64,000 nucleotides of DNA from Fontisphaera persica (GTDB taxonomy: Bacteria; Verrucomicrobiota; Verrucomicrobiia; Limisphaerales; Fontisphaeraceae). Of this stretch, positions 17,101 through 41,725 are shown one piece after another. The DNA lies in the NCBI RefSeq assembly GCF_024832785.1, contig NZ_CP116615.1, forward strand, positions 2,666,001-2,730,000, given 5' to 3'. A program made the translations under genes and the position numbers. The notes beneath the pieces are model-generated. The model did not search any database and had not been told where the DNA came from. It saw only the letters and a list, made by a program, of their open reading frames with translations. Within the stretch, counting starts at the first letter, position 1, and each line of letters opens with the position of its first letter.

Positions 17101-17633
17101 ATGAGGGATTGTTCGCCGGAGTTGAGGGCCACCTGGCCCACTTCATTGCTGACGTCCACAGAACCATCAAACACGGCCACCAGGACGGTTTCGCCTTCCT
17201 CGGCAGTGGAGAGGAAAAACTCGGTGCCGCGGACGGCGCCGGAGGCCTTTTTGGCGCGAAACTCCAAATCGGAGGGTTTGCCGCGGTCAAACATGAAGAC
17301 GGAGCCATTTTTGAGGTCCAGCAAGGGGCTTTTTTTGTTGGGGGGCGCCTGGATGACCATGGTGGTGACCTCGCTCAGGCGGAGGACGCTCTGGTTGTAC
17401 AGCCGCAGGCTGGCGCGGCTGTCGCGGCCGGTGCGGATGCGGTCGCCGGGATTCAAGACCTGGTTGGGCTGGGCCGGGGTCCAGGTGTCCTGCCCGGCGC
17501 GGGATACTTCGACTTTGCCCTCGATGGTGAGGATGACGGAGGTGTTGGTCGCTTCCTGGGCCAGCACGGCGCCGGCGCAGGTGACGACGACGGCGAGGAA
17601 CAGACTCCGAAACAGCCATGATAGATTGCGCAT
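14151..17633 (-). CDS. FecR domain-TPR-outer-membrane beta-barrel fusion
   Basis: 1160 residues with a signal peptide (about 1-25). A FecR-like beta domain (about 30-190: VILTIEGKVEVSRAG, VLNPGDRIRTGRDSRASLRL, SGAVRGTEFFLST) is followed by tetratricopeptide repeats (about 225-560). The last 560 residues look like an outer-membrane beta-barrel: alternating amphipathic strands, TonB-receptor-like stretches such as ISPKAGFILTPYPGATLRGGYAR and LNLTDQDYRLNP, and a terminal phenylalanine (FWRF) as in BAM-recognised barrels. No plug domain or TonB box is seen, so ordinary TonB-dependent import is unlikely. The start is 26 bases after the giant gene's stop, so the two are probably co-transcribed. It could be a surface anchor, channel or assembly factor for its partner; this is inference. 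Confidence 0.75.
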   Translation of the reverse strand: MRNLSWLFRSLFLAVVVTCAGAVLAQEATNTSVILTIEGKVEVSRAGQDTWTPAQPNQVLNPGDRIRTGRDSRASLRLYNQSVLRLSEVTTMVIQAPPNKKSPLLDLKNGSVFMFDRGKPSDLEFRAKKASGAVRGTEFFLSTAEEGETVLVAVFDGSVDVSNEVGQVALNSGEQSLIEEGKRPEKTAVINAVNLIQWCLYYPGVLDPKELPLDGLPELAASLADYRAGHLLGALDKYPPNREPATDAERVYRAGLALAVGRVDAAEALLAKVPAASPAAPLANALRTVIQAVKFEVRAAPAAPPATASEWMAESYYYQSRSQLPSALNAARQAARLSPEFGFAVARVAELEFSFGRIAAMETQLDRALALSPRNAQAHVLRGFAHAARGRIPQAQVCFEQAIALDGALGNAWLGRGLCRIRQGQTAAGLEDLQTAAALEPQRSLLRSYLGKAYSHGRDTRQAAHELTLARKLDAGDPTPVFYRALLNRQENKLNAAVRDLEESIRLNDNRSVYRSRLLLDQDRAVRSANLAGIYQDAGLTEVALREAFKAVYSDYGNYSAHLFLANSYDALRDPRGTVLRYETPWLSEYLLANLLSPANAGVLSQQISQNEYSRLFDRDRVGFVSLTEYASNGDWLQGAAQYGVIGGTAWSLETLYRAENGYGAPNRDLEHLTVSLKVKQQITQQDGLYFQAVYFDGAMGDVSQRYDPFTTHRTFRLKDNQEPLLMAGYHREWSPGNHTLLLVTRLHDHLRVSNPAQRTMILDYSFAPLAGVIPVGFVQELDERSEIYTAELQQILQRERHNTIFGGRLQVGEFDVTSRQRNPTVFPGFFTPGFAANQSVSVDLNRFGAYAYHSWEIARPLTLIGGIAYDHFQYPVNLRLSPISARTESVDRISPKAGFILTPYPGATLRGGYARYLGGLGFEQSFVLEPTQMAGFNQALRNLVPDALFGPTPASRGEIFGLAFEQKLPTQTYLGASGEILFSDVNRELGVFAFRGLPPFRPETTREQYDFRERTLRLYVNQLLGEEWGLGAQYRLSHADVQQRIPVIPETMSPLAAAHTRGLLHQLNLFVAFNHRCGFFSRLEGIWTQQHNQGFNPDRPGDDFWHFNAFAGYRLKRGRAEIKLGVLNLTDQDYRLNPVNTYLELPRERTFFASLFWRF

Positions 17634-17659: not shown

Positions 17660-20600
17660 TTATTCAAGGCCAACGGCGCGGTAGAATCTGCGGCCAGTGG
17701 CGGCCGCCGGGTCCGCAAACTGCACCTGGGAGCCGGTGGCCAGGTTGGTGCTGATGGGCACCCAGGTGGAAAGGTTGGTGGAAGCTTGAATGACGAACAT
17801 CTGGCCGGCCTTGCCGGTGATGTTCAAGGTGAACACGCCGTTGGAGTAACTGGTGGCGCCGCCGGTGGCAAACCGCAGCGGGGCCTCGACGGTCAAGGTG
17901 GCCACGGCGCTGGTGACGCTGGCGGCCGGATTGGAGACCACGACACGGAAGGAGCCGGCATCGGCGGCCTGGACATTGGTGAGCGCCAAGGTGGCATTGG
18001 TGGCGGTGGCCAGGGGGAGCCAGTTGGTTTGCCCGGTGCGCAACTGATACCACCGGTAAGCCAGCGGGGCCGTGCCGGAGGCGGCCACGCTGAAGGTGGC
18101 GCTGCCGCCGGAGGCCACGCTTTGGTTGACGGGCTGCGCAGTAATCGCAGGCGGCAGGGCCAGCAAATAATTCATGACGATATGGCCCTGGGCGCCGTTG
18201 ACGCCGTCCACGGCCACCAGGTAGGACTGGCCGGCCTGGGCATTTATGCGGACCAGGCTGCGCACGCCGTCCGGGGCGCCATTGTCATCGCTGGCAATTA
18301 ATTGGAGGGTCAGCAGGGATTCCCCCTGATAGACGGCCAGCACGGTGTCAATGTCGCTGCCGATGGTGTCAATGACCAGCACGCCATTGGTCAGCGTGTC
18401 AATGCGGAACCAGCGCGAGGCGCCGCCCTGGATGCCGCCATGCTGGGGTTCGTTAGGTTCGGTGGTGGCGCCATAGTTGTCCAGCACCTGCGTGCCGGAG
18501 CTGCCCGCCGAGACGGAGGCGAAGAACTGGCGTTGCGGGCCGCCGAGGGTCTGGCCGCCGGGGCCGGTGCCGCGGAGCATGTCATCGAATTTGTCATGCG
18601 TGCGGACGTCTTCGAGCACGACGGTTTGATTGCTCTGCACCATCTGGCCCACTTCGAGCACAAACACCCGCGACTGCGCGCGCCGGTCCGGGTTGGCGCC
18701 ATAGACCATGACGTAATACGGGCCAATCAGGGCGCGGGTGAGCGCCGGGATTTGGTAGGTGGCGGCGGTGGCGCCGGCGATGGGCTGGCCGCGGAAGAAC
18801 CATTGATAAGTGGCGGCATTCTGGGCGGTGACCTGCAGGTTGACCGGCGAATTTTCGGGCACGGTGCGGGAGCGCGGCTGGTCGGTGATGATGGGGTAGT
18901 CGGTCACGCCCACCAACAAATTCCAGCTCAGGAGGATGGTGCCGGTGGCGCCTTCCACGCCATCCACCAGGAAGTGGTAGGCATTGCCTTCGCTGACCGG
19001 GAAGGTGATGCGCTCATTGAGGTTGCCCGCCGAGTCTTCATCCCGCTCCACCACCATGAGCGAGTTCAAGGTGTTCCCCTGCAGGACGATAAGCAATGTA
19101 TCGAAGGTGCTGCCGAGGGTGCTGACGGTCACCACGCCGTTGGTGGGGGCCACCCAGGTGGCCCAGACGGAGCGGCCGCCGCGTTTGAAGCCGGTGGGCA
19201 ACTGGTCATCCTGCAAGCCGGTGGCCTCAGTGTTTTGTCCGCGCACGATGCCGGCAGCCACGGCGGGCAGGCTCACGGAGTTGGTGAAACGGTCCCCCAG
19301 GGCCACCAGCGGCGCGTCCAGCAACACTTCCGCCGGCAGGCTTTCGGCGACGCCATAAGGAGTGCTGGCCACCACGCTGTAGGCGCCACATTGAGCCAGT
19401 TGGATGTTGGTGAGCGTCAGCGTAGCATTGGTGGCACCGGGCAGATTCACGCCATTGAGCCGCCACTGGAAATAGAGCGGCCAGGCGCCGCGCGCGGTGA
19501 CGGTGAGCTGATGGGAGCCGCCGGCGGTAACCACCCTGCCCTGCGGCTGCCCCACAATGATGGGCGCGCCTCGCGGGGCGAATACGGCCAGATTCGGCCG
19601 CCAGTCGCCGCCCACGCGGGTGAAGTCGCCGCCGACAATGACGACATTGGTCACGGCAGCCAGGGCCTGCACGCCCAGCGCCTGGGGCGGCACCGTCAAA
19701 TCGGGATTCCATTCCGTGACGGCGCCGGAGACCGCATCCAGGGCCCCCAGATGATTGCGATGGGAGGCGCCCAGGCGATTAAACCAACCGCCAACATCCA
19801 ACACATTTTGCCGGAGGCCCAAGGCCCGCACCACGGCCACATCGCCGGTGGCGCTTTGCGCCGGCACGTTGAATTCCGGCAAGGCCAGCCCGCTGGCATC
19901 GAGCGCCGCCAGCCGCTGGCGGGCGGCGCCGCCGATTTGCGAGAAGGAGCCACCCACATACAGGAGCGGCGCGGGAGTCTCCCGGAGGGCCAGCGCCATG
20001 ACGGGGGCGTTGGGCGCGGGGTTCCAGGCATCGAGCGCGCCGCTGGCGTCCACCCGCGCCAGGAAGGGGCGCAGCGTGCCGTTGATGGAATTGAACTCAC
20101 CGGCCAGGTAAATTTGCGCGCCGTTGGTCGTGGCCCGCAAGGCCAGCACGGGGCCGTCGGGCGCCGGATTCCAATCCAGCAAGGCGGCAGTGTCGGCATC
20201 CACCGCGCCGGCATAAGTCCGCGTCGCGCCCGCCAGGTTGGAGAAGTCGCCGCCCACATAGAGGCGTTTGCCCGCCAAGGCCAGCGCCCGGACGGCGCCA
20301 TTGGCGGCGGCATCCCAAGGCGTGACTTCTCCGTTGAGGATGGAAATGGCGGCGAGGCGGCTGCGCTCCGCGCCGCCGGCGGCGGTGAATTCGCCGCCCA
20401 GATACAGGTTGGTCCCGCTCACCAGCAAGGCGCGCACAGGGCCATTGGCGCCCGGATTCCAACTGGTGGTCTGGCCGGTGGCCAGGCGCAAAGCGGCGAT
20501 GTTGCTGCGAAGGACGCCGCCGGCCACGGTGAACTGGCCGCCGGCAAACAAGGTGTTGTCCTGCAAGGCCAGTGCGCGCACGGGGCCATTGGCGGGTGCC

Positions 20601-23600
20601 TGCCAATTCAGCAAGGCCGCGGTGACGGGATGCACCGCCGCCATGCGCATGCGGGTCTGGCCGCCCATCGTCAAAAACTGACCGCCTGCGTAAAGGGCAT
20701 CCGGCCCCGCCGCCAGGGAGCGCACCACGCCGCCCGCGCCGGGATTCCATGTCCGCAGCGCGCCGTCCAGACGGGCAAAAGCCGCCAGATGCCGGTAAGT
20801 GATGCCGCCGCTGGTGAAGGAGAAGTCACCGCCGGCAAAGAGGGTTTCACCCAGCGTGGCCAGGGCATAAACGCGGGCGTTGGCGCCTGCGGGCAGGGGG
20901 GCCTGCCAGCCCAGGACCTCGCGAGTTTCAGTGTCAAGAAGGGCGATTTTGGGCCGGCTCAGGGTTACGTTGTTATTGGTCAAGGTGTCAAATTCGCCGG
21001 CGACAAACAGGCGGTGGTCATCCACCAGGAAGGCATGGATGGTGCGGTCCACGCCGATGACAAAATCGGTGCGCACCTGGCCATCGCTGGGGTCCAGCTT
21101 GGCCAATCGCGCCCGCGGCAGCCCACCGATGGTTTGGAATTCACCGCCGACATATAATTTGCTGTCCACTTGGGCCAGGGCGCGGACGGGTCCATCGGGG
21201 TTGGGGGCAAAGGGCCGGAGCGCGCCGTCCTGGGTGCGGATGGCCGCCAAATTATTGCGTGGGAGTCCCCCGACCTGGGTGAACTCGCCGCCGACGTAAA
21301 GGATTTGTTCGTGCAGCAGCAGAGCGCGCACAGGCCCATTGACTCCCACCACCCAGGCGGGATTGACGGATTTATCCGGGAGCAGATGCACGAGGTTGGT
21401 GCGTGGGAGCCCGCCGACGCGCACGAATTCTCCGCCAATAAACCATCCCCCGCGGCCGTCAGGTACCACGGCGTAAATGGCTGCGCCTTCCACGCGCGGC
21501 CAGACGGTGTCCGGCCGGGCCGAGGTGGCATCCAAGGCCACGCCCAGACCTGAGTTGGGCCCGACCATGCGGAAATTGCCGCCGAGGTAGAGGGTGCCGG
21601 CGTTTTCGACCACGGCATGCACTGGACCATCAGGCACCCAGAAATCATCACGCGGCACGCTGGCGGGTGGGGCGAGGACGGCGGAGACGGTGAGTTGAGC
21701 GGTGGCCTGGGCCTGGCCGGCGCGGTTGCTCACCACCACCGTATAGGCACCCATTTCCCAGGGGGAAACGTTGGTAATCACCAAGGTGGGTCCCGTCGCC
21801 CCCGCCAGCGGAGTTTGATAACGATACCATTGGTAGCGCAGCGGCGGTGTGCCCACCGCCGTCACGGAGAACACCGCAGAGGTGCCGGGCGGCAGAATGA
21901 CGGACTCCGGCGGCGCGGTAATGACCGGCGGCACGAACACCCGCACCAAGGTGGCCTCGCTGTCCTCATAGCCATAGGCGTTGCTTACCCGAACAAAATA
22001 CAGACCACTGTTGGCCGGTGAGGCATTGGGAATGAGCAGCGTGGCGCTGTTGGCGCCCCAGAGCGGGAAGCCATTGAAGAACCATTGATAACGCAACGGG
22101 GGTGTGCCGAGTGCGCGGATGGTCAGTTCAATGGTTTGGCCTCGGACGACGTCCAACTCCTCCACCTGGCTGACAATGGCCGGCTCCTCCGCCTGTCCCA
22201 GGATTTGAACCTCGAGTGGCATGCTGGTGGTGCTGGCTCCCAAGTCATCTACCACGCGCGCGGTGAACACATATTCATCGCCAGCCGGCAGGTTGGTCAG
22301 CGTCAAGGCTGCCGTGAACCGATTGGTGGCCAAGGGATTCACGCTCGTGCCCACCAATTCCTCGTTGAGGAAGAAGTCCACCTGTTTGACCACGCCGTCG
22401 TCCAGTGTTGAGGCCACCAGCGGGATGATGCCGGGCGCGGTGAAGCGGGCCAGATTGGTGTTGAGGGTGAGCTGCACCGCGGGCGGGACATTGAATACGA
22501 GGCTCAGGCGCACATCGCCGCCGGCGCCCGCGAAGCCCTTGACGGTGATGTAATAAGTGGTCCCCGCGGTGACCTCGAGGGTGAGCAAACTGGCCCCCAG
22601 GCCGGCGCCGCCCACCAGGGTCATGATTTCCGCCCCGCCGTCATCGTCCAGCGCCAGGAGTTGCAGGTTTTGCAGAGTGGTGCCGGTGTACACTTCCAGC
22701 AAGGTGTCAAAGCTGCTGCCCAAGGTGCTGATGAGCACCGTGCCGCTGGCGGGCGCCGTCCAACGGTACCAGAGGGAATTCCCCGCCAGGCCGCCCCACG
22801 GGTCAGGCTCGCCCGGTTCGAGGGTGGCGCTGCGATTATCATCCGTGACCGACACCGCCGGGCCGGTGAGCGGGCGCGCGTTGGCAAACAAGTCATGGTT
22901 AGCGGCCGGCGGGCGCACGGTCACCCGCACCGGCTGGGTCTCAGCGGCCACGCCTGCGGCATCCACCGCCCGGGCGCGGAAGAAGTATTCACCCGGCGGC
23001 ACATTGGTCAGGGTGATTTGGCCGGTAAAGGGCGTGCCGGGCGGCTGGTTGGTGGCGGTGCCCACCAGGATGTTGCCGCGGTAGAATTCCATCCGCGCCA
23101 CGCCATCGCTGTCCTGGGCCTGGGCGCGCAATAGAACCGGCCCCGGAGCCGTCAACACTTCGCCCGCCAGCGGCGAGAGCCAGGTGACCGTGGGCGGCAT
23201 GTTCATGCTGACCAGGAGCGAGTAGAATCCCCCCGCGCCATTGTAACCGTCCACGGCGATGTAATAGGTCTGGTTGCGCCGGGCGGTGAACCACAGGCGG
23301 CTGGTCAGGACGTCCGCTTGCGAGGGGTCATCGTCATTGGAGGCCACCTCCTCCAACCCCATCAAGGAAGCTCCTGTGTACACGGCCACCACGGTGTCGA
23401 AGGTGCTGTCGGCGGTGGTGACGGTGACCAGCCCATCCTGCGGCGCAGTCCAGGCAAACCACACCGAGCGCCCGCCGGGCACGCCCGCGTGGTAAGGCTC
23501 GCCCGGCTCGAAGGTGGCGCCGGCGCTGTTGCCAGAGTAGGCAGCGGAGAGGCCGGTCAAGAGGGCGCGATTGGCAAAATCATCATTGGTGGGAGCGGGC

Positions 23601-26600
23601 GCGACCACCGAGAAACTGACGGGCGGCGATTCGCGCGAAGCGCCCTCGTTGTCATAGGCGGTGGCCAGCAGGCGATAGGTGCCCACCACCAAATTGGAGA
23701 GCACAAAGGAGGCCTCGAAGCGGCCGGCCTGAGAATTCATGGCCCACCCGGCCGGGGAATCGTTAAGCCACAGGTTGACGCTGCTGACCTGACCGTCGAA
23801 ATCCTCGGCGGTCACGCGCACGGTCACGTTGGCCGGGCCATCAAACTGAGACTTGGGCGCGGGCTCGGTGATGACGACCAATGGGGCGCTGTTGGAAGAA
23901 AGGGCCACGTTCAACACCAGGTCATCCAGCAGCAGCGAGCTGAACCGGCCCAAGCCCTGCGCATCCGACTCGAAGACCACGGAGGCAATGTCCGGGCCGT
24001 TGAGGGTAAAGGTGCGCGCCGGGATGTCTTGAGGCGAGAAGAGGGCGTTTTCGCCCACCGCGCTTAATTCCATGCCAAAGCGGTTGAAGGCGCGCGCCCG
24101 CCAGCGGGGGTGATTGGCGCCGGCGGCACCGGCCAGCACGGTCACGCGGGTGAAGCGGACGCTGTCGAGCACCTGCTGGAACTCGAAGCGGTTGGTGACC
24201 GGGCCGCGGGAGGCGGAGACTTGCTCGAGGAGGTTCGAGCCACTGGAGGGTTTGAGGAGGCCCGGATAAACCTGCGTGGCACGCACCACCTGCACCGTGC
24301 TGGCGGGCGTGAGGTTGATGACACGCGCCTGGAAACCGGCCAGGTAATTGCTGAGGGCAAATGGCGTGCTGACGCCGCTGGGCAGCAAGTTGACGCCCTC
24401 AAAGTCCAGTTTGTGCGTGGCCGCATAGTTGTTGACGACAATGCGCACCGGCACGGCGTCCACCGAGGCACCCTGGTGGTCCGTAACTTTGGCGCTGAAG
24501 ACATATTCGCCGGCCCACAGATTGCTAAGTGTCAACCGGTAGTAGGGTTCGACCAAGTGGTCAAGGAATTGATCATTTTGGAAGAATTCCACTGAATGGA
24601 TTCCGCCGTCAGGGTCCGTGGCGGTGACTTCCAGGGTCACAGTGGCAGGAGCGACGAATTCCGCGCCGTCAGCCGGGCTGATGAATGCCACCACGGGTGG
24701 CGTGTTGGGCACCAGGTCCGGCACAAAAAGGCGGGAAAGGACGGCGTCGGCGCCGCCAGCCCCGCCGCTGCTGGTTTCACCGGCCACATACAGGAATTGC
24801 CCGTCCATCGTGAGGGCGTAGGCAAAGTCGTCCTGATGGTACCCTTGGAGCAGGGTGGACAATAAACTTCCCTCCTGCGGGTCCAACCTGAGGACCACCG
24901 CGTCTGCGCCCCCTGCGGTGCCGCCATAGGTGTAACCACAAGCGTATAACCGGCCGCTTTGGGCCACGACACCGGTTAGCACGTCGTCTTCCTCGGCGCG
25001 GTCCAGGATGGTGGACCAGATTATCCAACCCTCCTTGTTCCAGGCTTCCACCAGGAAATCCTGGCCGCTCCAGAAATTATCGGCGGCGCCCACGGCAAAC
25101 AGGATGCCGTTCATGGTGGCCAATCCATGGTATTCGCCCGGGGAGCCCAACATCCGCCACTCCAGCCGGCCGTTGCGGCTGAATTTCCAAAGCGTGGCAT
25201 ACGAGATGCCTTCGATGTCGCAACGCCCGGCCACGTACACGGCACCGCCCATGACCACCACGGCATTGCCCACGCTGTAGTCCACCGGCAAATCCACCGC
25301 AAAACCGGGCGTGCTGATGACCCCGAGGGTTTCAGCCGGGGTATTTTGCTTAAGCTCACTGCTGACCCAGAGTTCACTGCCGCCGGGGGTCACTTTGGCC
25401 ACAAACATCTGCCCGTAACTTTCCGCGCCGCTCTGGCCCTGGCCGGTGACGTACCAGAACTCGCCCTCCGGCTCCTGGCTGCGGGTGATGGCATGGAGGT
25501 ATTCGGCGCCGTTGTAATCAAAAGCGCCGTTGAGCGGTGTGCGGCGGGAGAAGATTTCCAGCCCGTTATTGGCGCCCAACTGCACGAGCACGCCCTTGGC
25601 GGCGCGAGCGGCGGAAAGGAGCGGCTCGTTGTAGCCGGCAAACACCGGACCGGCGGGGGTGGCCAAAACTCCCCTGAACCCATCAGCGCCCGGACGCCCC
25701 GGCCACCAGGTTTGCCACGTAGGCGAGGTGTTGGTGGTGAAGTTTGCGGGGACGCACAGGCCGAAGGCCTCCCCTGCCCCCACTTCCATCACGCCACCGA
25801 CATAAACGGCGTTGGATTGCACGGCCACAGCCAGGGCGGCTTCATCGGCCGAACTGCCCAAAAATAGCACGGCTTGAGTTTGGGGGTTGGCCGCGCGATT
25901 GACCGTTAAAAAGGCTACCTCGCTCTCCAGGGATTCTCCGAGGTCATTATAGACGATGACCTTGTATCGTCCGCCCTGGTTGGCGTTGACTGACGGAAGG
26001 TACAGGTCTGCCGATTGTGCCCCTTCAAGAGCCAGGTCGTCATGAAGCCATTGATAATGCAAATTGGTCCCCAGGGCCTTGACCGAGAGCAGCACCGGGC
26101 TGCCTGCCAACACCACCTGGCTGCGTGGTTGGGCGATGATGGCCAGACGGCTGGCCTCGAAGAAATGGGCGGTGATGGTCCGGTTGCCATTCATGACCAA
26201 ACCGGCCGTGGCATTGGTGCCCACCAGGTCGCCGCTCCAACCGCCGAAGAGGTAACCGGGGTCAGGCAGGGCCGTTAAGAGGACGGGCGTCCCATTGGTA
26301 TAGTAATTGGCCTGCGGGGCGCGCTGGACGTTGCCGCCGCCCACCACGAGCGTGTTTAACGCATAAGTATTGGGTGGCAACGGGGCAAAAACGGCCATTA
26401 TCGCAGGGCCGGGATTGGTCAGGACCAAATCCAGCGGACTGACATTGGGCGTGCCGGTGGGCAGATTCCATTGTTGGAAATAATAGCCCGCGTTGGGCAG
26501 GGCCGAGAGCCGCACACGGCTGCCATAAGGGAAGAGGCGCAACGGTGGGTCGAGCTGCACCACCCCGCTGCCTTGAATGGTTATGGGCAAGGTGGTGCCA

Positions 26601-29600
26601 AAAATGGCCTGAACCTGCCGCGGCTGATTCATCACCACCTGCGTAACCGCGTTGGTGGAGCTGATGTCTCCCTCCCAGCGGAGGAAGCTCCAGCCGGGCG
26701 CGGGCATGGCAGACAAGGTGACCACCGTATTGGAAGGATACGGCCCGGGGGCCGGGCTGGCCGAGATGGCGCCACCGCCGGGGGTGCTGAACGACAGGGG
26801 GAATGTCCAGCCAATTTCCAGGCGATTGGTCACGACTGCCGTCCAGGCGGTGCGGTTGCTGTTGTAGGCGATGGCTTTGAGAATCACCGGCGGGCGCACC
26901 TCGAAGGGTTCGACGTATAGACGGCCGTCGTCAGGATGCAAGTTGTTGGTCGAGTAATAAATGCTGCCATTGGGGAAAGCCGTGGTGAGGAAAACCAGGA
27001 CCGGTGAGTTGTCCGGGAAGAGATGCCGGCCATCCGGTCTGAAGACGCCGTTGATTTCAATGTAAGGGTCCTGCTCAATCACTGTCAGATAGGCGGGGAA
27101 ACTATCCACGCTGCCTGAAGAGTTGCTGACGCGGACAGAATAATAACCTTCGTGGGCCGGTGAGACGTTGGTGATGGTCAGGGTGGCGTTGGTGGCACCT
27201 GCAATGGGAGCCGCGCCAAAGAACCATTGATAGGTGGGCGTAGGCAAAGCTTCCGCCACCACGGTAAAGGTTGCCGTGGACCCCGCCCGCGCCACGGTAT
27301 CCTCCGGATGCTGCAGAATAGTGGGGGGATGATCTTGTTGGATTTCCAGATAGAGTGGCTCGGAGGTGACAAAGCCCAGAGCATTGCCCACTTCAACCAC
27401 ATAATATTGCGCATGGAACGGGGTCAAATCGTTGAGAACCAACCAGGCATTGGTGGCATCGGGAATGGGAACGACATGCCCATACCAGTTATACCATTGA
27501 TAAGACAATGGGCGCTGACCAATGGCTTGGGCCGAGAAAACGGCGGTGCCCCCCACCCTGCCCTTGCGCTCCAACACCTGCGGCAACAAGAACGGCGGGC
27601 CGGAGCCAAGCAGCGCCAGACTATGCCCGAAACCCGCGGCCAATGCCACCACGTTGGTCAGGCCGGGCGGCACCAGCAGCTCGCCATGGCCGCTCTCGCC
27701 CCATACCATCACTGTGCCGTCAGGGCGCAAAGCCACGCTGTGATTTCCACCCGCCGCGATGGCCACGGCATTGGTCAAAACGGGCGGGATGTTGAGCTGG
27801 CCCCGGTCATTGGCCCCCCAACCGATGACCTTTCCATCCATTAACAAAGCCAGACTGTGGTTGGCCCCAGCAGAGATGGCCACCACGTTGCTCAGCCCCA
27901 CCGGCGGACTGGCCTGGCCGTAAGTATTGTCTCCCCACCCCACCACCGTGCCATCGGCCCGCAAAGCCAGGCTGAAGTCTTCACCCGCCGCAATGGCCAC
28001 GATGTTGGTCGCCTGGGGAGGGACGTTACATTGTCCCGATTCATTGGCCCCCCAAGCCACCACTGTCCCATCTTCCAAGAGCGCCAGATTGTGCGCAGCG
28101 TTGGCAGAGACGGCTACCACGTTCATCAATCCCGGGGGCACATTGAGTTGATTTAATGAATTATTGCCCCACGCCACGACGGTTCCCTGATTCAACAAAG
28201 CCAGATTGTGGGCATACCCCGCGGAAACTTGGATGACATTGGTCAGCCAGGGTGGAACCGTGCCTTGGAAATAAGAATTGTCCCCCCAGGCCACCACCGA
28301 GCCGTCACGCTTCAAGGCCAGACTATGATGCTCTCCACAAGCAATGCCGATGATATTGCTCAGCCCCGCCGGCACATTAGTCTGGCCAAAGGCATTATAT
28401 CCCCAAGCCACCACCTGCGCTGGTGCGGTAACAGGTGGTGACTCCAATTGAAGCGCCATGACCGGGCTGGTGACTAAGCCCCGGCTGTTTTGGACCACGA
28501 CCTGGTAGGCGCCGGCATTTTCCGGCCGCACATTGTTCACCACCAGCCAGGGTTGATTGGCGCCGGGGATGGGCACGCCATTAAACAGCCATTGATAAGT
28601 CAGCGGCCACTCGCCACTGGCAGCAACCCTAAACACTACCGGCTGTCCCACATTGGCCCGCCGCGCAGGCAGGACAGGCGCCAACTGGGGCGGGCCTTCG
28701 CCCAGCACCGCGATGCTGTGTTTGCCGCCTCCCGCAACGGCCACCACGTTGCTGAAGCCAAACGGAACAGAAGTTTGGCCCAAATTATTTCTTCCCCAAG
28801 CCACCACGGTGCCATCCGACTTCACGGCCAAGCTATGATGGAACCCGCAGGCAATGGCCACCGCGTTGGACAATCCCGGCGGCACATTGGTTTGGCCATA
28901 ATGGTTATCTCCCCATCCCACCACCGTGCCATCCGCGCGCAAGGCCAGACTGTGGACCCATCCGGCGGCCACTGCCACCACATTGCTCAACCAAGTGGGG
29001 ACCGCGACTTGGCCGGAATTATTAGCCCCCCACGCAACCACCCTGCCGTCAGCCTTAAGAGCCAAGGTGTGATATGCCCCCGCCGCAATGGCCACCACAT
29101 TACTCAAGCCCGCAGGAACATCAAGTTGACCATCGGAATTGCCGCCCCATGCAATAACGGTGCCGTCTTCGCGCAAGGCGACACTATGCCTTGCGCCAGC
29201 AGCTATGGCCATCACACTGCTCAGACCCAAAGGAATATCAATCTGTGACCAATAATTATATCCCCAACCCTGCACAGTTCCATTATGGAGCAGGGCCAGC
29301 GCATGGTCCGCGCCTGCCGCAATGGCCACTACATTGGAAAGGGTCGCAGGGACGGTCATCGGTGCGTATATCTCATCACCACCGGTCCAGTATTCTCCCC
29401 ATGCCTTCAAGGTTCCATCCCTGCGCAAGGCCAGATTGAAGTATTCACCCGCCGCCACGGCGGTGACGTCATGCAGTCCTGGCGGCAACAAATCCAAGGC
29501 TCTGGGCTTGTTCCCCCACACCACCACATTGGCTGGCGGCGGGGGCGAAACAATGACCAAATGGGCCACCGCACTGGTCACCACTCCCCAAGGATTGCTC

Positions 29601-32600
29601 ACCACCACGTCATAGGCCCCGGTGTTCAAGTTTTGGACGTTGGGCAGGAAAAACCAAGGTTGAGTAGCGCCCGTCAACGGCAGGCCATTCAACCTCCACT
29701 GGTAGGTCATGGGGCGCTGGCCTGTGCCAGCGGCATAAAACACGGCCCGGCCCCCTTCCTGGACCCGGGTCTGGGCAACCTGCGGTGCCAGCCGGGGCGG
29801 ACAATTCCCCATCAAGGCTACACTGTAATTATCTCCCCCGCTTATCGCGACCACCTGAGACAAACCCGCTGGCATATTGGTGGCACTAACGCTGTAATTG
29901 TATTCCCCCCATCCCACCAGCGTGCCATCAGCCTGGAGTGCCAGACTGTGAGAATAACCGGCGGCTATGGCCACGACATTACTGAGACCGGCAGGCACAC
30001 TGGTGGCGTCCAAGTCATTGTCCCCCCAAGCCACCACGGTGCCGCCAGAACGCAGCGCCAGGCAATGAGCGCCGCCCGACGCGATGGCCACCACATTAGT
30101 GAGACCAGGTGGCACAAACACCTGGTCGCAACAGTTGTTGCCCCACACCACGACGGTGCCGTCCGCGCGCAGGGCCATGTTGTGCTCATGGCCGGCCGCA
30201 ATAGCGACAATATCCCGTAAACCCTCAGGTGCATAACCCTGGCCTTCCCAATTGTAACCCCAAGCCACCACGGTACCATCGGCCCTCAAGGCCAAGCTAT
30301 GCATTGCACCCGCGCTGATGGCCACGACGTTGCTGAGGCCCGGCGGGGGCACCGCTTGGCCGTAGCCATCACCGCCCCACCCCACCACGGTGCCGTCCTT
30401 GCGCAGGGCCAGACTGTGGTACTCCCCCGCCGCAATGGCCACCACGTTGGACAACCCTGGCGGCACATTGGTTTGGCCACTACCATTGTGGCCCCAAGCC
30501 ACCACCGTACCGTCCGCCCTCAATCCCAGGCAGTGATCATAACCCCCGGCAAGGGCGATAAGATTAGTCAAGCCCGGCGGCACATTGGCCACTCCCCAAT
30601 TATTATTGCCCCAAACTATGACCTGAGAGGTGATGGGTGGCGGGGGTGGCGTTTCCAATTGGAGCGTCATGACCGGGCTGGTGACTGAGCCCCGGCTGTT
30701 TTGAACCACCACCTGATAAGCCCCGGCATTTTCCGGCCGCACATTGGTCACCACCAGCCAGGGTTGATTGGCGCCGGGGATGGGCACGCCATTAAACCGC
30801 CATTGATAAGTCAGCGGCCATGCTCCCACCGCTTGGATAGTGAAGACGGCGTTTTCACCTGGCTGGACAAGTCTTCTTCCTACTTGCGGTGTCACCCGTG
30901 GCGGGCCATGACCGATAAGGGCCAAACCAAAATACGTACCGCCTGCCACTGCCACCAAGTTGCTAAGATTGGACGGAATTTCTGGCGGAACAAAACCCCA
31001 CGTCACCAGCGTGCCATCGGCACGCAAGGCGAAGGTCTGATCCAAGCCCGCCGCCACGGAAACGACGTTGCTTAAGCCGGGTGGCACGTTGGTTTGCCCT
31101 AAGGAGTTGCCCCCCCAAGCCACCACTGTGCCATCCGCTTTCAGGGCCACACTGTGCCGCCAGCCAGCGGCAATCCCCACCACGTTGCTCAAACCAGGCG
31201 GCACCATGAGCTGGTCTTCCGAGTTGGCCCCCCATGCCATGACTATGCCATCCGCCGTGAGTGCCAAGCTGTGGTAATCCCCGGCGGCAATGGCCACGAT
31301 ATTGCTCCAGCCCGGTGGGGCTTCGACGCCGTTACCCCAAGCCACCAGAGTGCCATCTGCCTTCAGGGCCACGGAGTGGGCATGTCCGGCGGCAATGGCC
31401 ACGGCGTTGGTCAGGTCGGCGGGGACCTCCAATTGTCCCAAGTCATTGTCTCCCCATGCCAGCACCTTGCCATCGGCCATGAGTGCCAAAGCGTGCCGTT
31501 CGCCGGCGGCGACGGCCACAGCATTATTAGCCTCCCACGGAATGTTCAATTGGCCGTCGGTGTCTCGCCCCCACCCCACCACGCGGCCGTCCCCACGGAC
31601 CGCCAGGCAGTAGTCAAAATGAGTGGCCATGGAAATGACGTTGGTCAAATCCGGCAACACCTCAGCGCGCTGGCCCCAATTTGGCCCCAAAGGCACCACT
31701 GGCGGCGGAGGAAAGACCCACAAGTTTGCCACCTGGCTGGTCACCACGCCAAAGGCATTGCTTACCACCACATAATACGGGCCGCTCTGATGAAAACCGG
31801 GACTGATTATTAATAAATTGGTCGCGTTGGCCCCAGCAATCGGAGAGCCTTGGAAATACCACTGATAATACAAAGGTTCCTGCCCGTAAGCGACCACGTA
31901 AAACTCGGCGAACTTGCCCACGGTCACCATCGTGTCGAGCGGCGGGCGGAAGATTTCAGGCGGCCAGGGAGGAGGCCCCACATCCAAGGTGGCCACCTGG
32001 CTGGTGACGGCACCAGCGGCGTTGCTGACGACGACGAAGTAAGAACCGGCCACGGAGGAGTTAACGGCCGGTATGGAAAAGACGGGATTGGTCCCCGTTT
32101 GAACCATTGTGCCTTGGAAATACCAATGGTAATAAAGCGGAGGATCACCGGTGGCCACCACTTGGAATTGCGCGGGCAGGCCCTCCGGCACGGTTTGCGA
32201 GGCGGGCTGTTGGGTGATGACAGGCGGCGCCACCGAAGGCGCCTGGGGCACTAGGGGATGCGCAGGGCCGGAGTAAACTACTGGAGAATATAAATAACCG
32301 TAATCTTCGGGGGGGCCACTGTTAAAAAGCCCATCCGTCCATGGCCGCGGATTCACTCCGCCCCCCGGCAGAGGCAACGCCGGCTCGAACCAAAAGGCTT
32401 TATGCGGAAACATGAACGGATAAGAGGGCTGCCATAATCCATTGGTGAAAAAATAGGGCTGGAATTGCTGTGCCAGCTCATTGAAAATCCAGATTTTATC
32501 ACCTTCCATGGCGGGAAATCCAGTGAAGTCGCGAGTAGGAAACAAGGGAGAAAGAACGCATTTCATCTCCGGCACCGCATTGGTCAGATGGCCCACAGGA

Positions 32601-34366
32601 AGCTCGCCTAGCATTCGCAATAGGAATGGCCCGCCCAAAGGATTGTAGAAATAGAAGCCCTCCCCGGGCTTCAGCAACCGCGCTGCGGGAACAAAGCTCT
32701 CGTCCAACCATCCATACAACGTGGAATAGTTATATGTCTCCAACCGGTTGCTGTTAATCAAGACGACCCGCGCATTTTCTGGCGGCCCCCAAAAAGCGCT
32801 GTTGAGGGAGTTATCGCTGGTCCTAAAAGGTTGCGCGATCAAATTGTAGCCTAGTTGCAACTCATACCCCCCACAGCCGAAAACGTTGGTGGCAAAGATT
32901 GTCGTCCCCAAGGGCCCTCGTGCGGCAATCCGATAAAAATGCCAAAATCCAGGAATTACATTAGTATCGTTAACTGTGTGAATTTGCCCCGATAGGCCCA
33001 AGGCATTGGTAACCAAGCTAAAAGCCCCTTGGGGAATATGGCTTCTTTCCACCATCAATTCCCCGGAATCGGAAGAAGCTTGGACAGTAATAACCATCGT
33101 ATTCCCCGTGAGGGTGAAGGAGAGCAACCGCGGGGGGGCGACGACGGAGACGGTGGCCACCTGGCTGGTGATGGCGCCGTAGAGGTTGCTGACCACGCAA
33201 TAATAATTTCCCCGATGGGTGGGGGCAGACTGGAGGTACTGGAGGTAGTCCTGGTTGGCCAAAGGGATGGGAAGCCCATCCTTGTACCATTGGAAAAACA
33301 GCGGATGCGTGCCGTCGGCAAAGCAGGTGATGACAATCTCCTTGCCGGGCGGGCCTTCCCACGATTCGGCATTTTGGGTGATATGGGGCACCAGCCCCTG
33401 CACGAACAGGTTAATTTCCCCCCACGGCCAGCCGTTCAATTCCAAATAATAAGCCCGGTCGCTGGGCGAAAAATCGGCCTGAAGGAAATCCCCTGAGATA
33501 TAACCCCGAATCAGGGTAACTTGGTAATCCTGCGGCCAGGGATAGAGCGGCTCCAACTGGACTTCCAGCCGGCCATTCAAAGCGATGGTCTGGTAACTCT
33601 CAATGAAGCCGTAGTCTGTGATTGCATTAGTGCCGGTGAGATAATAGCGAACTACGGAATTGCTCCCCAAGGTCAGGGTGGCCTGGTCGAGGAGCAATTT
33701 GCCCGAGTGGATTTCCAGCGAGCCCTCATTCTGAACAGTCATCAAGGGCGTCCCAAAATCCTCCGGGTTCAACACCACCGTGCCCGTGCTGGTGAGAAGG
33801 ATGGTGCCGGTGTTAACAAGGCGCACATTGAGATTGCTGCTGATGATGGGTTGGGAGACGTTGATGTCGAAATAACCGCAGTTGGTGATGACGGCGCCGG
33901 TGTGGAGAAACAGGGGCGCTTCTCCGGCCCAGCGGCCGTAGCTCCGCACTTCCAGGGTCCAATCTTGCAGGACGACGGTGTTGGTGTTCTCGATGGTTGC
34001 ATTGGCCATGGCCACCAGGCGCCCACCGCCGCCGCCCAGGGTGCCGGCCTGCCAGTAATAGTAATTTTCGACTACCAGCGTATTGGCCCCACTAATGGTG
34101 CCGCCATGCTGATACAAGTAACCCACCATGAACTGGTTGGTGGAGGCTGGGAGCACGATGTTACCATCATTGACAGTGGCTTCGTCTCCCGGCCCGGGCA
34201 CGCCGGTGGGATTCCAGTTGGTGGCCACATTCCAAGGGCCGCTGCCTCCCCGCCAGACATACGAAGCACCCTGGAGGGGAGTGAGGTGGGGCATCAGCCA
34301 AATCATCACCCCCGCCACAGTGGCCCACAAATGCCACTGGGGCTTCAAGAAGTTCTTGGCTTTCAT
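17660..34366 (-). CDS. Giant secreted Ig/RCC1/PPC/delta-60 repeat protein (5568 residues)
   Basis: Signal peptide about 1-34. Approximate order follows. Beta-helix-like N-terminus (35-327, starting YVWRGGSGPWNVATNW); Ig (328-412); an unassigned part (415-711); two Ig (712-885). RCC1 array 1 (899-1154), Ig, array 2 (1246-1521), Ig, array 3 (1609-1889), Ig, array 4 (1983-2256). Two Ig (2256-2428); chitobiase-C-like (2431-2516); three InlB-type B-repeats (2518-2730); Ig (2733-2821); an SBBP-like propeller (2821-3216). Alternating Ig-like Big and PPC-like domains (3219-4056), with a lectin-like insert at 3313-3491; two Ig; 14 delta-60 repeats (4239-4929); Ig, PPC, Ig, PPC, Ig (4933-5493). The C-terminal module (about 5496-5568, QASTNLSTWVPI) is typical of secreted Verrucomicrobia proteins. 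No catalytic motif, LPxTG or PEP-CTERM is visible. A surface adhesin or binding scaffold is most likely. The FecR-TPR-barrel gene follows in the same unit. Confidence 0.85.
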   Translation of the reverse strand: MKAKNFLKPQWHLWATVAGVMIWLMPHLTPLQGASYVWRGGSGPWNVATNWNPTGVPGPGDEATVNDGNIVLPASTNQFMVGYLYQHGGTISGANTLVVENYYYWQAGTLGGGGGRLVAMANATIENTNTVVLQDWTLEVRSYGRWAGEAPLFLHTGAVITNCGYFDINVSQPIISSNLNVRLVNTGTILLTSTGTVVLNPEDFGTPLMTVQNEGSLEIHSGKLLLDQATLTLGSNSVVRYYLTGTNAITDYGFIESYQTIALNGRLEVQLEPLYPWPQDYQVTLIRGYISGDFLQADFSPSDRAYYLELNGWPWGEINLFVQGLVPHITQNAESWEGPPGKEIVITCFADGTHPLFFQWYKDGLPIPLANQDYLQYLQSAPTHRGNYYCVVSNLYGAITSQVATVSVVAPPRLLSFTLTGNTMVITVQASSDSGELMVERSHIPQGAFSLVTNALGLSGQIHTVNDTNVIPGFWHFYRIAARGPLGTTIFATNVFGCGGYELQLGYNLIAQPFRTSDNSLNSAFWGPPENARVVLINSNRLETYNYSTLYGWLDESFVPAARLLKPGEGFYFYNPLGGPFLLRMLGELPVGHLTNAVPEMKCVLSPLFPTRDFTGFPAMEGDKIWIFNELAQQFQPYFFTNGLWQPSYPFMFPHKAFWFEPALPLPGGGVNPRPWTDGLFNSGPPEDYGYLYSPVVYSGPAHPLVPQAPSVAPPVITQQPASQTVPEGLPAQFQVVATGDPPLYYHWYFQGTMVQTGTNPVFSIPAVNSSVAGSYFVVVSNAAGAVTSQVATLDVGPPPWPPEIFRPPLDTMVTVGKFAEFYVVAYGQEPLYYQWYFQGSPIAGANATNLLIISPGFHQSGPYYVVVSNAFGVVTSQVANLWVFPPPPVVPLGPNWGQRAEVLPDLTNVISMATHFDYCLAVRGDGRVVGWGRDTDGQLNIPWEANNAVAVAAGERHALALMADGKVLAWGDNDLGQLEVPADLTNAVAIAAGHAHSVALKADGTLVAWGNGVEAPPGWSNIVAIAAGDYHSLALTADGIVMAWGANSEDQLMVPPGLSNVVGIAAGWRHSVALKADGTVVAWGGNSLGQTNVPPGLSNVVSVAAGLDQTFALRADGTLVTWGFVPPEIPSNLSNLVAVAGGTYFGLALIGHGPPRVTPQVGRRLVQPGENAVFTIQAVGAWPLTYQWRFNGVPIPGANQPWLVVTNVRPENAGAYQVVVQNSRGSVTSPVMTLQLETPPPPPITSQVIVWGNNNWGVANVPPGLTNLIALAGGYDHCLGLRADGTVVAWGHNGSGQTNVPPGLSNVVAIAAGEYHSLALRKDGTVVGWGGDGYGQAVPPPGLSNVVAISAGAMHSLALRADGTVVAWGYNWEGQGYAPEGLRDIVAIAAGHEHNMALRADGTVVVWGNNCCDQVFVPPGLTNVVAIASGGAHCLALRSGGTVVAWGDNDLDATSVPAGLSNVVAIAAGYSHSLALQADGTLVGWGEYNYSVSATNMPAGLSQVVAISGGDNYSVALMGNCPPRLAPQVAQTRVQEGGRAVFYAAGTGQRPMTYQWRLNGLPLTGATQPWFFLPNVQNLNTGAYDVVVSNPWGVVTSAVAHLVIVSPPPPANVVVWGNKPRALDLLPPGLHDVTAVAAGEYFNLALRRDGTLKAWGEYWTGGDEIYAPMTVPATLSNVVAIAAGADHALALLHNGTVQGWGYNYWSQIDIPLGLSSVMAIAAGARHSVALREDGTVIAWGGNSDGQLDVPAGLSNVVAIAAGAYHTLALKADGRVVAWGANNSGQVAVPTWLSNVVAVAAGWVHSLALRADGTVVGWGDNHYGQTNVPPGLSNAVAIACGFHHSLAVKSDGTVVAWGRNNLGQTSVPFGFSNVVAVAGGGKHSIAVLGEGPPQLAPVLPARRANVGQPVVFRVAASGEWPLTYQWLFNGVPIPGANQPWLVVNNVRPENAGAYQVVVQNSRGLVTSPVMALQLESPPVTAPAQVVAWGYNAFGQTNVPAGLSNIIGIACGEHHSLALKRDGSVVAWGDNSYFQGTVPPWLTNVIQVSAGYAHNLALLNQGTVVAWGNNSLNQLNVPPGLMNVVAVSANAAHNLALLEDGTVVAWGANESGQCNVPPQATNIVAIAAGEDFSLALRADGTVVGWGDNTYGQASPPVGLSNVVAISAGANHSLALLMDGKVIGWGANDRGQLNIPPVLTNAVAIAAGGNHSVALRPDGTVMVWGESGHGELLVPPGLTNVVALAAGFGHSLALLGSGPPFLLPQVLERKGRVGGTAVFSAQAIGQRPLSYQWYNWYGHVVPIPDATNAWLVLNDLTPFHAQYYVVEVGNALGFVTSEPLYLEIQQDHPPTILQHPEDTVARAGSTATFTVVAEALPTPTYQWFFGAAPIAGATNATLTITNVSPAHEGYYSVRVSNSSGSVDSFPAYLTVIEQDPYIEINGVFRPDGRHLFPDNSPVLVFLTTAFPNGSIYYSTNNLHPDDGRLYVEPFEVRPPVILKAIAYNSNRTAWTAVVTNRLEIGWTFPLSFSTPGGGAISASPAPGPYPSNTVVTLSAMPAPGWSFLRWEGDISSTNAVTQVVMNQPRQVQAIFGTTLPITIQGSGVVQLDPPLRLFPYGSRVRLSALPNAGYYFQQWNLPTGTPNVSPLDLVLTNPGPAIMAVFAPLPPNTYALNTLVVGGGNVQRAPQANYYTNGTPVLLTALPDPGYLFGGWSGDLVGTNATAGLVMNGNRTITAHFFEASRLAIIAQPRSQVVLAGSPVLLSVKALGTNLHYQWLHDDLALEGAQSADLYLPSVNANQGGRYKVIVYNDLGESLESEVAFLTVNRAANPQTQAVLFLGSSADEAALAVAVQSNAVYVGGVMEVGAGEAFGLCVPANFTTNTSPTWQTWWPGRPGADGFRGVLATPAGPVFAGYNEPLLSAARAAKGVLVQLGANNGLEIFSRRTPLNGAFDYNGAEYLHAITRSQEPEGEFWYVTGQGQSGAESYGQMFVAKVTPGGSELWVSSELKQNTPAETLGVISTPGFAVDLPVDYSVGNAVVVMGGAVYVAGRCDIEGISYATLWKFSRNGRLEWRMLGSPGEYHGLATMNGILFAVGAADNFWSGQDFLVEAWNKEGWIIWSTILDRAEEDDVLTGVVAQSGRLYACGYTYGGTAGGADAVVLRLDPQEGSLLSTLLQGYHQDDFAYALTMDGQFLYVAGETSSGGAGGADAVLSRLFVPDLVPNTPPVVAFISPADGAEFVAPATVTLEVTATDPDGGIHSVEFFQNDQFLDHLVEPYYRLTLSNLWAGEYVFSAKVTDHQGASVDAVPVRIVVNNYAATHKLDFEGVNLLPSGVSTPFALSNYLAGFQARVINLTPASTVQVVRATQVYPGLLKPSSGSNLLEQVSASRGPVTNRFEFQQVLDSVRFTRVTVLAGAAGANHPRWRARAFNRFGMELSAVGENALFSPQDIPARTFTLNGPDIASVVFESDAQGLGRFSSLLLDDLVLNVALSSNSAPLVVITEPAPKSQFDGPANVTVRVTAEDFDGQVSSVNLWLNDSPAGWAMNSQAGRFEASFVLSNLVVGTYRLLATAYDNEGASRESPPVSFSVVAPAPTNDDFANRALLTGLSAAYSGNSAGATFEPGEPYHAGVPGGRSVWFAWTAPQDGLVTVTTADSTFDTVVAVYTGASLMGLEEVASNDDDPSQADVLTSRLWFTARRNQTYYIAVDGYNGAGGFYSLLVSMNMPPTVTWLSPLAGEVLTAPGPVLLRAQAQDSDGVARMEFYRGNILVGTATNQPPGTPFTGQITLTNVPPGEYFFRARAVDAAGVAAETQPVRVTVRPPAANHDLFANARPLTGPAVSVTDDNRSATLEPGEPDPWGGLAGNSLWYRWTAPASGTVLISTLGSSFDTLLEVYTGTTLQNLQLLALDDDGGAEIMTLVGGAGLGASLLTLEVTAGTTYYITVKGFAGAGGDVRLSLVFNVPPAVQLTLNTNLARFTAPGIIPLVASTLDDGVVKQVDFFLNEELVGTSVNPLATNRFTAALTLTNLPAGDEYVFTARVVDDLGASTTSMPLEVQILGQAEEPAIVSQVEELDVVRGQTIELTIRALGTPPLRYQWFFNGFPLWGANSATLLIPNASPANSGLYFVRVSNAYGYEDSEATLVRVFVPPVITAPPESVILPPGTSAVFSVTAVGTPPLRYQWYRYQTPLAGATGPTLVITNVSPWEMGAYTVVVSNRAGQAQATAQLTVSAVLAPPASVPRDDFWVPDGPVHAVVENAGTLYLGGNFRMVGPNSGLGVALDATSARPDTVWPRVEGAAIYAVVPDGRGGWFIGGEFVRVGGLPRTNLVHLLPDKSVNPAWVVGVNGPVRALLLHEQILYVGGEFTQVGGLPRNNLAAIRTQDGALRPFAPNPDGPVRALAQVDSKLYVGGEFQTIGGLPRARLAKLDPSDGQVRTDFVIGVDRTIHAFLVDDHRLFVAGEFDTLTNNNVTLSRPKIALLDTETREVLGWQAPLPAGANARVYALATLGETLFAGGDFSFTSGGITYRHLAAFARLDGALRTWNPGAGGVVRSLAAGPDALYAGGQFLTMGGQTRMRMAAVHPVTAALLNWQAPANGPVRALALQDNTLFAGGQFTVAGGVLRSNIAALRLATGQTTSWNPGANGPVRALLVSGTNLYLGGEFTAAGGAERSRLAAISILNGEVTPWDAAANGAVRALALAGKRLYVGGDFSNLAGATRTYAGAVDADTAALLDWNPAPDGPVLALRATTNGAQIYLAGEFNSINGTLRPFLARVDASGALDAWNPAPNAPVMALALRETPAPLLYVGGSFSQIGGAARQRLAALDASGLALPEFNVPAQSATGDVAVVRALGLRQNVLDVGGWFNRLGASHRNHLGALDAVSGAVTEWNPDLTVPPQALGVQALAAVTNVVIVGGDFTRVGGDWRPNLAVFAPRGAPIIVGQPQGRVVTAGGSHQLTVTARGAWPLYFQWRLNGVNLPGATNATLTLTNIQLAQCGAYSVVASTPYGVAESLPAEVLLDAPLVALGDRFTNSVSLPAVAAGIVRGQNTEATGLQDDQLPTGFKRGGRSVWATWVAPTNGVVTVSTLGSTFDTLLIVLQGNTLNSLMVVERDEDSAGNLNERITFPVSEGNAYHFLVDGVEGATGTILLSWNLLVGVTDYPIITDQPRSRTVPENSPVNLQVTAQNAATYQWFFRGQPIAGATAATYQIPALTRALIGPYYVMVYGANPDRRAQSRVFVLEVGQMVQSNQTVVLEDVRTHDKFDDMLRGTGPGGQTLGGPQRQFFASVSAGSSGTQVLDNYGATTEPNEPQHGGIQGGASRWFRIDTLTNGVLVIDTIGSDIDTVLAVYQGESLLTLQLIASDDNGAPDGVRSLVRINAQAGQSYLVAVDGVNGAQGHIVMNYLLALPPAITAQPVNQSVASGGSATFSVAASGTAPLAYRWYQLRTGQTNWLPLATATNATLALTNVQAADAGSFRVVVSNPAASVTSAVATLTVEAPLRFATGGATSYSNGVFTLNITGKAGQMFVIQASTNLSTWVPISTNLATGSQVQFADPAAATGRRFYRAVGLE
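19580..21650 (-). repeat. Delta-60 repeat array (14 units) inside the giant gene
   Basis: Fourteen copies of a 45-60 residue unit recur, each with a core such as LYVGGEF, LFAGGQF or LYLGGEF followed by a small loop and AALDxxTG-like strand. Fourteen units would suit two seven-bladed propellers or one long array. The units differ enough in DNA sequence that recent tandem expansion is not evident. Confidence 0.75.
27600..28420 (-). repeat. RCC1-type seven-repeat array 4
   Basis: Seven units of about 38 residues, each with a core like LSNVVAISAGANHSLAL and a VVxWGxN turn (residues about 1983-2256 of the giant). Seven units predict one complete seven-bladed propeller. Confidence 0.8.
28441..28612 (-). 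repeat. Ig-linker DNA duplication, copy 2
   Basis: This stretch, encoding the Ig-like domain with GANQPWLVVNNVRPENAG, is nearly identical in DNA to 30655-30830, with roughly one difference per ten bases by eye. The flanking RCC1 arrays are much more divergent, so the linker was copied or gene-converted recently. Confidence 0.7.
28700..29540 (-). repeat. RCC1-type seven-repeat array 3
   Basis: Seven RCC1-like units (residues about 1609-1889 of the giant); the first is longer, with an insert containing GGDEIYAPMTV. Again a complete seven-bladed propeller is predicted. Confidence 0.8.
29805..30630 (-). repeat. RCC1-type seven-repeat array 2
   Basis: Seven RCC1-like units (residues about 1246-1521 of the giant). 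One unit carries two adjacent cysteines (WGNNCCDQ), unusual in a secreted repeat. Confidence 0.8.
30655..30830 (-). repeat. Ig-linker DNA duplication, copy 1
   Basis: Partner of 28441-28612. It encodes the Ig-like domain with GANQPWLVVTNVRPENAG between RCC1 arrays 1 and 2. Confidence 0.7.
30905..31670 (-). repeat. RCC1-type seven-repeat array 1
   Basis: Seven RCC1-like units (residues about 899-1154 of the giant). The fourth is short, with the turn WGNGVEAPPGWSN replacing the usual spacing. A single seven-bladed propeller is predicted. Confidence 0.8.
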
Positions 34367-34426: not shown

Positions 34427-34454
34427 ACTATAACAAATTTCACATCCTTGATAA
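34427..34454 (-). promoter_or_regulatory. Possible promoter of the giant gene
   Basis: On the minus strand TTATCA, 16 bases, TATAGT, inside a clearly AT-rich stretch. The -10 box ends 60 bases before ATG 34366, leaving a leader that contains a run of eight T. Confidence 0.35.
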
Positions 34455-34497
34455 AGCAAAAACTGTGCGCAGAAGAACGCCTTATTAAAGTTGTAAA

Positions 34498-35742: not shown

Positions 35743-35756
35743 GTTGATACGGGAGT

Positions 35757-37766: not shown

Positions 37767-37768
37767 GT

Positions 37769-41584: not shown

Positions 41585-41702
41585 GGTTGTGGGTGTTTTG
41601 GGTGATTTATCCTTCCGCCATCCAGCCAAAGCCTCCCCGTCGAGCCGCAGAACCGGCGATGGTTTTGCGCACACCGTCCGGTGCTTTCGCCCCGCGGCGT
41701 CA

Positions 41703-41725
41703 CTGTTCATTTTTTGAGTGAACAG
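41703..41725 (-). other. Intercistronic hairpin between CE6 and CE1-malectin-GH51 genes
   Basis: CTGTTCA and TGAACAG form a perfect 7-bp stem with a 9-base loop, 17 bases after the CE6 stop. No T-run follows on the minus strand, so partial termination or mRNA processing is more likely than full termination. The rest of the 158-base gap shows nothing else. Confidence 0.4.

Follow-up and report, generated by a model that had tools for sequence, protein, structure and literature searches.

A giant, probably secreted multi-propeller protein of Fontisphaera persica encoded directly upstream of an NsrA-like FecR-TPR-barrel receptor

Giant exoproteins are abundant in the genomes of this lineage and seldom come with a proposed partner, which raises the question of what the one encoded in a 64,000-nucleotide stretch of the Fontisphaera persica genome (contig NZ_CP116615.1, positions 2,666,001 to 2,730,000; hereafter the window) does, and with what it works. 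Our analysis indicates that the giant is likely a surface-held or released binding scaffold, while gene linkage suggests as its functional partner the FecR-TPR-barrel protein P0001, encoded downstream; that the giant works beside this NsrA-type receptor is about an even call. It is this linkage, and not the size of the giant, that we consider worth following.

The minus-strand frame of the giant runs unbroken from an ATG at 34366 to a TAA at 17660 (5,568 codons, single stop; computed mass 587 kDa, pI 5.0), and the other five frames of the same stretch contain 40–241 stops. Because a 5,127-aa ortholog, 74% identical and with dN/dS of 0.04–0.25, occupies the syntenic position in a species of the same genus (the sister species), the frame is considered a real gene and no accident of assembly, and the single intact 5,568-residue protein described in the initial annotation can be taken at face value. 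No DNA tandem arrays were detected within the gene, so its repeats are not recent copies. The features of the locus are collected in Table 1.

Table 1. Features of the giant gene and its surroundings, with positions in the window.
Feature	Position	Strand	Basis
P0001, 1,160 aa: signal peptide, FecR, TPR, 22-strand TonB-receptor-type barrel	14151..17633	-	Pfam, AF2, homologs
Gene of the giant, probably secreted protein, 5,568 codons	17660..34366	-	Open frame; sister ortholog, dN/dS 0.04–0.25
C-terminal module, residues 5494–5568, ending ...RFYRAVGLE	17663..17887	-	Home-made HMM
PPC domains 3 and 4 with Ig in between, residues 5025–5396	18179..19294	-	Pfam, own-sequence HMM
14 delta-60 (DUF5122) repeats, residues 4244–4935	19562..21637	-	Pfam, own-sequence HMM
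Four Big_7 alternating with PPC domains 1 and 2, residues 3221–4053	22208..24706	-	Pfam, own-sequence HMM
Probable fifth propeller, residues 2838–3205, delta-60-like units at each end	24752..25855	-	Own-sequence HMM
Three InlB-type (Flg_new_2) repeats, residues 2527–2735	26162..26788	-	Pfam, own-sequence HMM
CHB_HEX_C_1 / Fn3_assoc domain, residues 2454–2512	26831..27007	-	Pfam
RCC1 ring 4, residues 1979–2257, 7 blades	27596..28432	-	Own-sequence HMM
RCC1 ring 3, residues ~1613–1892, 7 blades	28691..29530	-	Own-sequence HMM
RCC1 ring 2, residues 1247–1521, 7 blades	29804..30628	-	Own-sequence HMM; AF2 model with flanking Ig
Ig+RCC1+Ig unit, 443 residues (798–1240), not in sister ortholog	30647..31975	-	Ortholog alignment
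RCC1 ring 1, residues ~892–1155, 7 blades; sister species without ring 1	30902..31693	-	Own-sequence HMM, ortholog alignment
Beta-helix/autotransporter-passenger-like N-terminal region, residues 35–320	33407..34264	-	Sequence pattern only; no Pfam match
Signal peptide, residues 1–34, cleavage near LQGA/SY	34265..34366	-	Sequence, by eye
Promoter-like site TTTATC-17 bp-TATAGT upstream of giant, kept in sister	34427..34455	-	Alignment, by eye
Xylan/arabinoxylan genes: GH10, GH51 with CBM, esterase-malectin-GH51, acetylesterase, GH43, GH127	34579..46691	-	Pfam

The giant gave Pfam matches to RCC1_2 (E 6e-213), WD40_RLD, the RCC1-like domain (3e-176), Ig_3 (8e-67 and 4e-52), Big_7 (2e-42), Flg_new_2 of the InlB type (1e-28), DUF5122, i.e., delta-60 (1e-21), PPC (4e-9) and, weakly, CHB_HEX_C_1 (1e-5), and to no catalytic family. 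Its signal peptide was judged by eye. Repeats were counted with HMMs made from the protein's own sequence beside Pfam, which yielded 14 Ig, four PPC, four Big_7 and three InlB domains, 14 delta-60 units with two further delta-60-like stretches (within residues 2838–3205), and 30 RCC1 matches that resolve into four arrays of seven blades, most of the rings being closed by their first and last half-units. The four seven-unit RCC1 arrays of the initial annotation were thereby recovered, as were its four PPC-like domains, 14 delta-60 repeats, InlB-type repeats and chitobiase-like part, while its "about fifteen" Ig domains became 14 of Ig_3 type plus the four Big_7. The 14 delta-60 repeats would make two seven-bladed rings, and the region framed by the two delta-60-like stretches is a probable fifth propeller.

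The prediction that the RCC1 arrays form seven-bladed propellers was upheld for the unit count in all four and at the level of a fold for one of them, as AF2, given the four paralogous copies, modelled ring 2 together with the Ig domains on either side as a ring of seven blades that an N-terminal strand closes (pLDDT 81). Its best PDB matches are BLIP-II structures (3qi0/1jtd, TM 0.88 of target, 40–42% identity), so that both the seven units per closed ring and the likeness in structure and sequence to solved members place ring 2 with the RCC1/BLIP-II propellers. Since BLIP-II binds proteins tightly, the RCC1 rings of the giant would be more likely to bind proteins than sugars, and by analogy with this one relative we regard protein binding as moderately likely. 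RCC1-type repeats had been presented as less well known from bacterial surface proteins than from eukaryotic nucleotide-exchange factors; secreted bacterial proteins with RCC1-like propellers, BLIP-II among them, have been described (PMC9218822).

The sister ortholog differs from the giant in only one large respect, a gap of 443 residues (798–1240) that corresponds to one Ig-ring-Ig unit and leaves it with three rings against four. Rings 2, 3 and 4 of the giant pair with sister rings 1, 2 and 3 at 69%, 62% and 75% identity, respectively, while ring 1 is 48–51% identical to all. A recent duplication of a whole ring was considered and rejected: blades are ~54% alike both within and between arrays, compared with 62–80% for orthologous rings, and a register signal is absent. 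Nor does ring 1 stand out in its similarity to other RCC1 proteins of its own genome (38–41%), for which reason loss in the sister species and an older gain would both account for the difference. The two orthologs are ~58% identical at the N-terminus and become more alike towards the C-terminus, near which identity reaches 89%, and dN/dS stays at 0.04–0.25 along the whole protein, although these ratios are rough with synonymous sites near saturation. The ortholog thus appears to be under purifying selection, and window dN/dS, read with the same saturation in mind, gave no sign of positive selection, the N-terminal region being merely faster.

The size and domain mix of the giant had been called rare, which our survey contradicts: the protein is a member of a class that is common in this lineage. 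Of the 58 genomes sampled from the order, 51 contain RCC1_2 repeats, the longest such frame reaching 9,708 aa, and the F. persica genome alone has 90 Ig_3 matches as well as C-terminal-module frames of up to 6,802 aa. The C-terminal module, common to many large exoproteins of the order, was matched 51 times (about 50 places) in this genome by a home-made HMM and alignment search. The longest of these frames exceeds the giant and holds three matches to the RFYR C-terminal module (G000:C1, about 1039500–1042847); the 9,708-aa open frame with RCC1 repeats belongs to another genome of the order (G057:C113, about 10936–15360). SprA of the type IX translocon was searched for and had no match in the F. 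persica genome, nor in the control genomes. Giant genes are reportedly discussed in the planctomycete literature, and giant Ig adhesins are known in other bacteria (PMC10619420). Our literature search for giant Ig proteins of Verrucomicrobia gave just one unrelated survey.

The P0001 gene follows that of the giant on the same strand after 26 bp, and its product ends in a phenylalanine. Its sister ortholog is 90% identical and again has the giant immediately upstream, at a similarly short spacing. An AF2 model built from 32 homologs (pLDDT 87) has 22 barrel strands, the closest solved barrels are TonB-dependent receptors, and the structural matches listed cover the TPR and TonB-receptor parts only; no plug family appears among the Pfam matches up to E 1. 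Homologs of P0001 are found in 34 of the 58 genomes of the order sample and in two of 195 genomes of a phylum-wide sample (at most three candidates scored per genome), with a single copy in F. persica. Profile-profile comparison aligned P0001 to a Sinorhizobium FecR-TPR-barrel protein over 1,009 columns (probability 99.9), and in the S. meliloti pSymB homolog the stop is overlapped by the start of a CHASE2 reading frame. From this layout, and from the position of nsrA directly upstream of cyaK, we take the pSymB homolog to be NsrA. NsrA is described as an outer-membrane receptor (barrel residues 600–1200) that acts with the CHASE2 cyclase CyaK and responds to ribosomal protein uL2 (PMC7529298, PMC13001267); perception of an extracellular protein with a rise in cAMP is reported for S. 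meliloti alone (PMC7529298). P0001 has the NsrA-type layout, with FecR, TPR and a C-terminal barrel in about 1,200 aa, and we call it NsrA-like, not NsrA, because its own genome has no CHASE2 cyclase gene adjoining it, a PSCyt/DUF1553 gene lying directly downstream instead. The genes that follow P0001 on the same strand (window 7555–13949) encode this planctomycete-type PSCyt/DUF1553 protein (1,046 aa), a DUF1501 protein (493 aa) and a CBM_4_9 protein (552 aa), and ORFs of matching lengths lie likewise downstream in the sister species. A literature search for FecR-TPR outer-membrane proteins in Verrucomicrobia gave no report.

The linkage was followed across 80 receptor loci, nearly all distinct (three pairs are >80% identical). 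Counting only cyclases related to a linked seed, at most 1.2 kb downstream and on the same strand, a CHASE2 cyclase lies directly downstream of the receptor in 40 of the 66 relatives' loci with enough sequence, and the one linked cyclase examined combines CHASE2 with a cyclase domain. ORFs of at least 400 aa with Ig or C-terminal-module matches make up 25 of 79 within 2.5 kb of the receptor, compared with 5 of 129 beyond that distance (Fisher p 5e-8) and 16 of 202 in the control (p 2e-6), which comprised 38 regions from a subset of the relatives, with genes called by a greedy ORF rule. Exoprotein linkage covers about one-third of the usable near ORFs, not all. Domains found in the neighbours include Ig, SBBP, FG-GAP, Calx-beta, RCC1 and DUF5122 (delta-60), and their genes lie variously upstream and divergent, upstream on the same strand, or downstream. 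An Opitutales locus reproduces the arrangement in the window, with a 2,415-aa protein encoded 50 bp before the receptor on the same strand; at this locus (L161, 2563–20474) the receptor homolog sits between the 2,415-aa Calx-beta/FG-GAP protein and a 2,345-aa RCC1/delta-60 protein, both of which have a trypsin-like domain. F. persica itself has unlinked cyclases and none beside the giant-receptor pair; among them is a 715-aa CHASE2 cyclase with a full-length identity of 39.5% to a linked one. Most of its giants (about 50 C-terminal-module places) have no adjoining receptor, of which there is a single copy. None of the papers searched describes an exoprotein as a component of NsrA-type receptor systems.

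The surroundings offer a different reading, in which the giant is an adhesion scaffold tied to xylan degradation, attaching cells or enzymes to plant polymer and grouped with the GH10, GH51, GH43 and GH127 genes, the receptor being incidental or a regulator of the locus. Directly upstream, about eight hemicellulase and esterase genes (GH10, two GH51, esterases, GH43, GH127 and GH95) share the giant's strand, and the sister species has retained a GH51-like gene upstream as well. These adjoining genes are also the whole basis of the plant-polymer tie drawn in the initial annotation. Against this tie, the giant has a promoter-like region to itself, which is conserved, and in the sister species its gene is set apart from GH10 by a stable hairpin and T-run (-18.3 kcal/mol; the version in the window is weak, -5.2 kcal/mol). 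Moreover, the giant lacks a carbohydrate-binding module except for one weak CHB_HEX domain, its RCC1 rings resemble a protein binder, and the recurring neighbours of the receptor in relatives are Ig/propeller exoproteins. We therefore hold this reading unlikely, and the xylan genes are probably a separate unit of mere positional neighbours; the link to the giant is only positional, although a common role in polymer use is possible. A LacI-operator-like near-perfect palindrome, AACGATAACGTTGTCGTT (34498–34521), was considered as a switch shared with the xylan genes; about 0.01 such sites are expected by chance in the window, and it was dropped as evidence because the genome has only this one copy and the sister species has not conserved it. 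Amid the hemicellulase cluster, a plus-strand ORF of 512 aa (46666–48204) has no Pfam match.

Two further readings keep the giant and the receptor and change the relation between them. P0001 might export the giant across the outer membrane, or anchor it there, by recognising the C-terminal module, as would suit an operon-like pair, a barrel with no canonical plug family match in Pfam, and the number of C-terminal-module proteins beside receptor homologs (19 of 79 near ORFs vs 11 of 202 in the control). The TPR-barrel layout is, in addition, found in the exporters PgaA and BcsC, but TonB-receptor-type barrels are not known to export proteins. Export through the barrel becomes less likely because some 51 C-terminal-module places share one receptor homolog in this genome; several genomes rich in RCC1 repeats have no receptor at all, and the cyclase-adjoining homolog acts as a receptor in S. 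meliloti (PMC7529298). We thus judge export to be very improbable. Equally, the giant could be one of the order's many modular giants with no specific partner, its adjacency to the receptor having arisen by chance; giants abound both in this genome and across the order, and about two-thirds of receptor loci are devoid of such a neighbour. Chance adjacency nevertheless seems quite improbable when the short giant-receptor spacing is kept between species and the enrichment at receptor loci is significant, falling to background beyond 2.5 kb.

Our best explanation, to which we attach an evenly balanced confidence, is that of a scaffold working beside an NsrA-type sensor. The binding or adhesion scaffold of the initial annotation is retained in its non-enzymatic nature, its multi-propeller/Ig make-up and its seven-bladed rings, and what had been missed is the candidate partner, P0001. 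At least four and probably seven beta-propellers would serve as binding heads, the RCC1 rings being of the protein-binding BLIP-II type, and the Ig, Big_7 and InlB-type domains would act as spacers. The giant and P0001 would be expressed together and most likely act side by side. At the surface, the scaffold would catch or present ligands or partner cells; the receptor, an NsrA-type outer-membrane protein with periplasmic FecR and TPR on a 22-strand barrel, whose gene adjoins that of a CHASE2 adenylate/guanylate cyclase in relatives, would report the state of the scaffold inward, presumably through the unlinked CHASE2 cyclase in this genome. Surface location, type of ligand and contact between giant and receptor are putative here, and the receptor may sense the giant itself, sense what the giant has bound, or anchor it. 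A more specific version, a three-part surface sensing system of a giant Ig/propeller antenna, an outer-membrane NsrA-type FecR-TPR-barrel receptor and an inner-membrane CHASE2 cyclase, is doubtful at present; in it the giant would either present captured protein ligands to the receptor or be the receptor's own ligand. Linkage to a receptor type with known cAMP output turns one class of giants into a testable question, and it places NsrA-type receptors, known from the control of rhizobial symbiosis, in a distant phylum as well, where extracellular proteins recur beside them.

Compared with known systems, P0001 shares the 22-strand barrel of TonB-dependent receptors, but it has no plug family match and FecR-TPR replaces the usual N-terminus. 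With NsrA-CyaK of Sinorhizobium meliloti it shares FecR, TPR and barrel over the whole length, and its relatives share the CHASE2 cyclase directly downstream; unlike NsrA-CyaK, the receptor of Verrucomicrobiota often has large Ig/propeller exoproteins as neighbours, and at the locus described here the cyclase is not adjacent. BLIP-II, also a seven-bladed ring and a secreted bacterial protein, consists of one free ring and inhibits beta-lactamases, whereas the giant strings four rings between Ig domains. GhpA, the grappling hook surface protein of Aureispira, is also a multi-Ig giant, but the likeness is a weak structural match (rank 46) restricted to Ig-like domains, short of a common architecture. 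Finally, the giant resembles other giant exoproteins of the PVC phyla and other bacteria in being probably secreted, free of catalytic Pfam families, longer than 5,000 residues and composed of Ig and beta-propeller repeats, and it differs from those known in combining four RCC1 rings and 14 delta-60 repeats in one chain and in having a receptor gene in an apparent operon.
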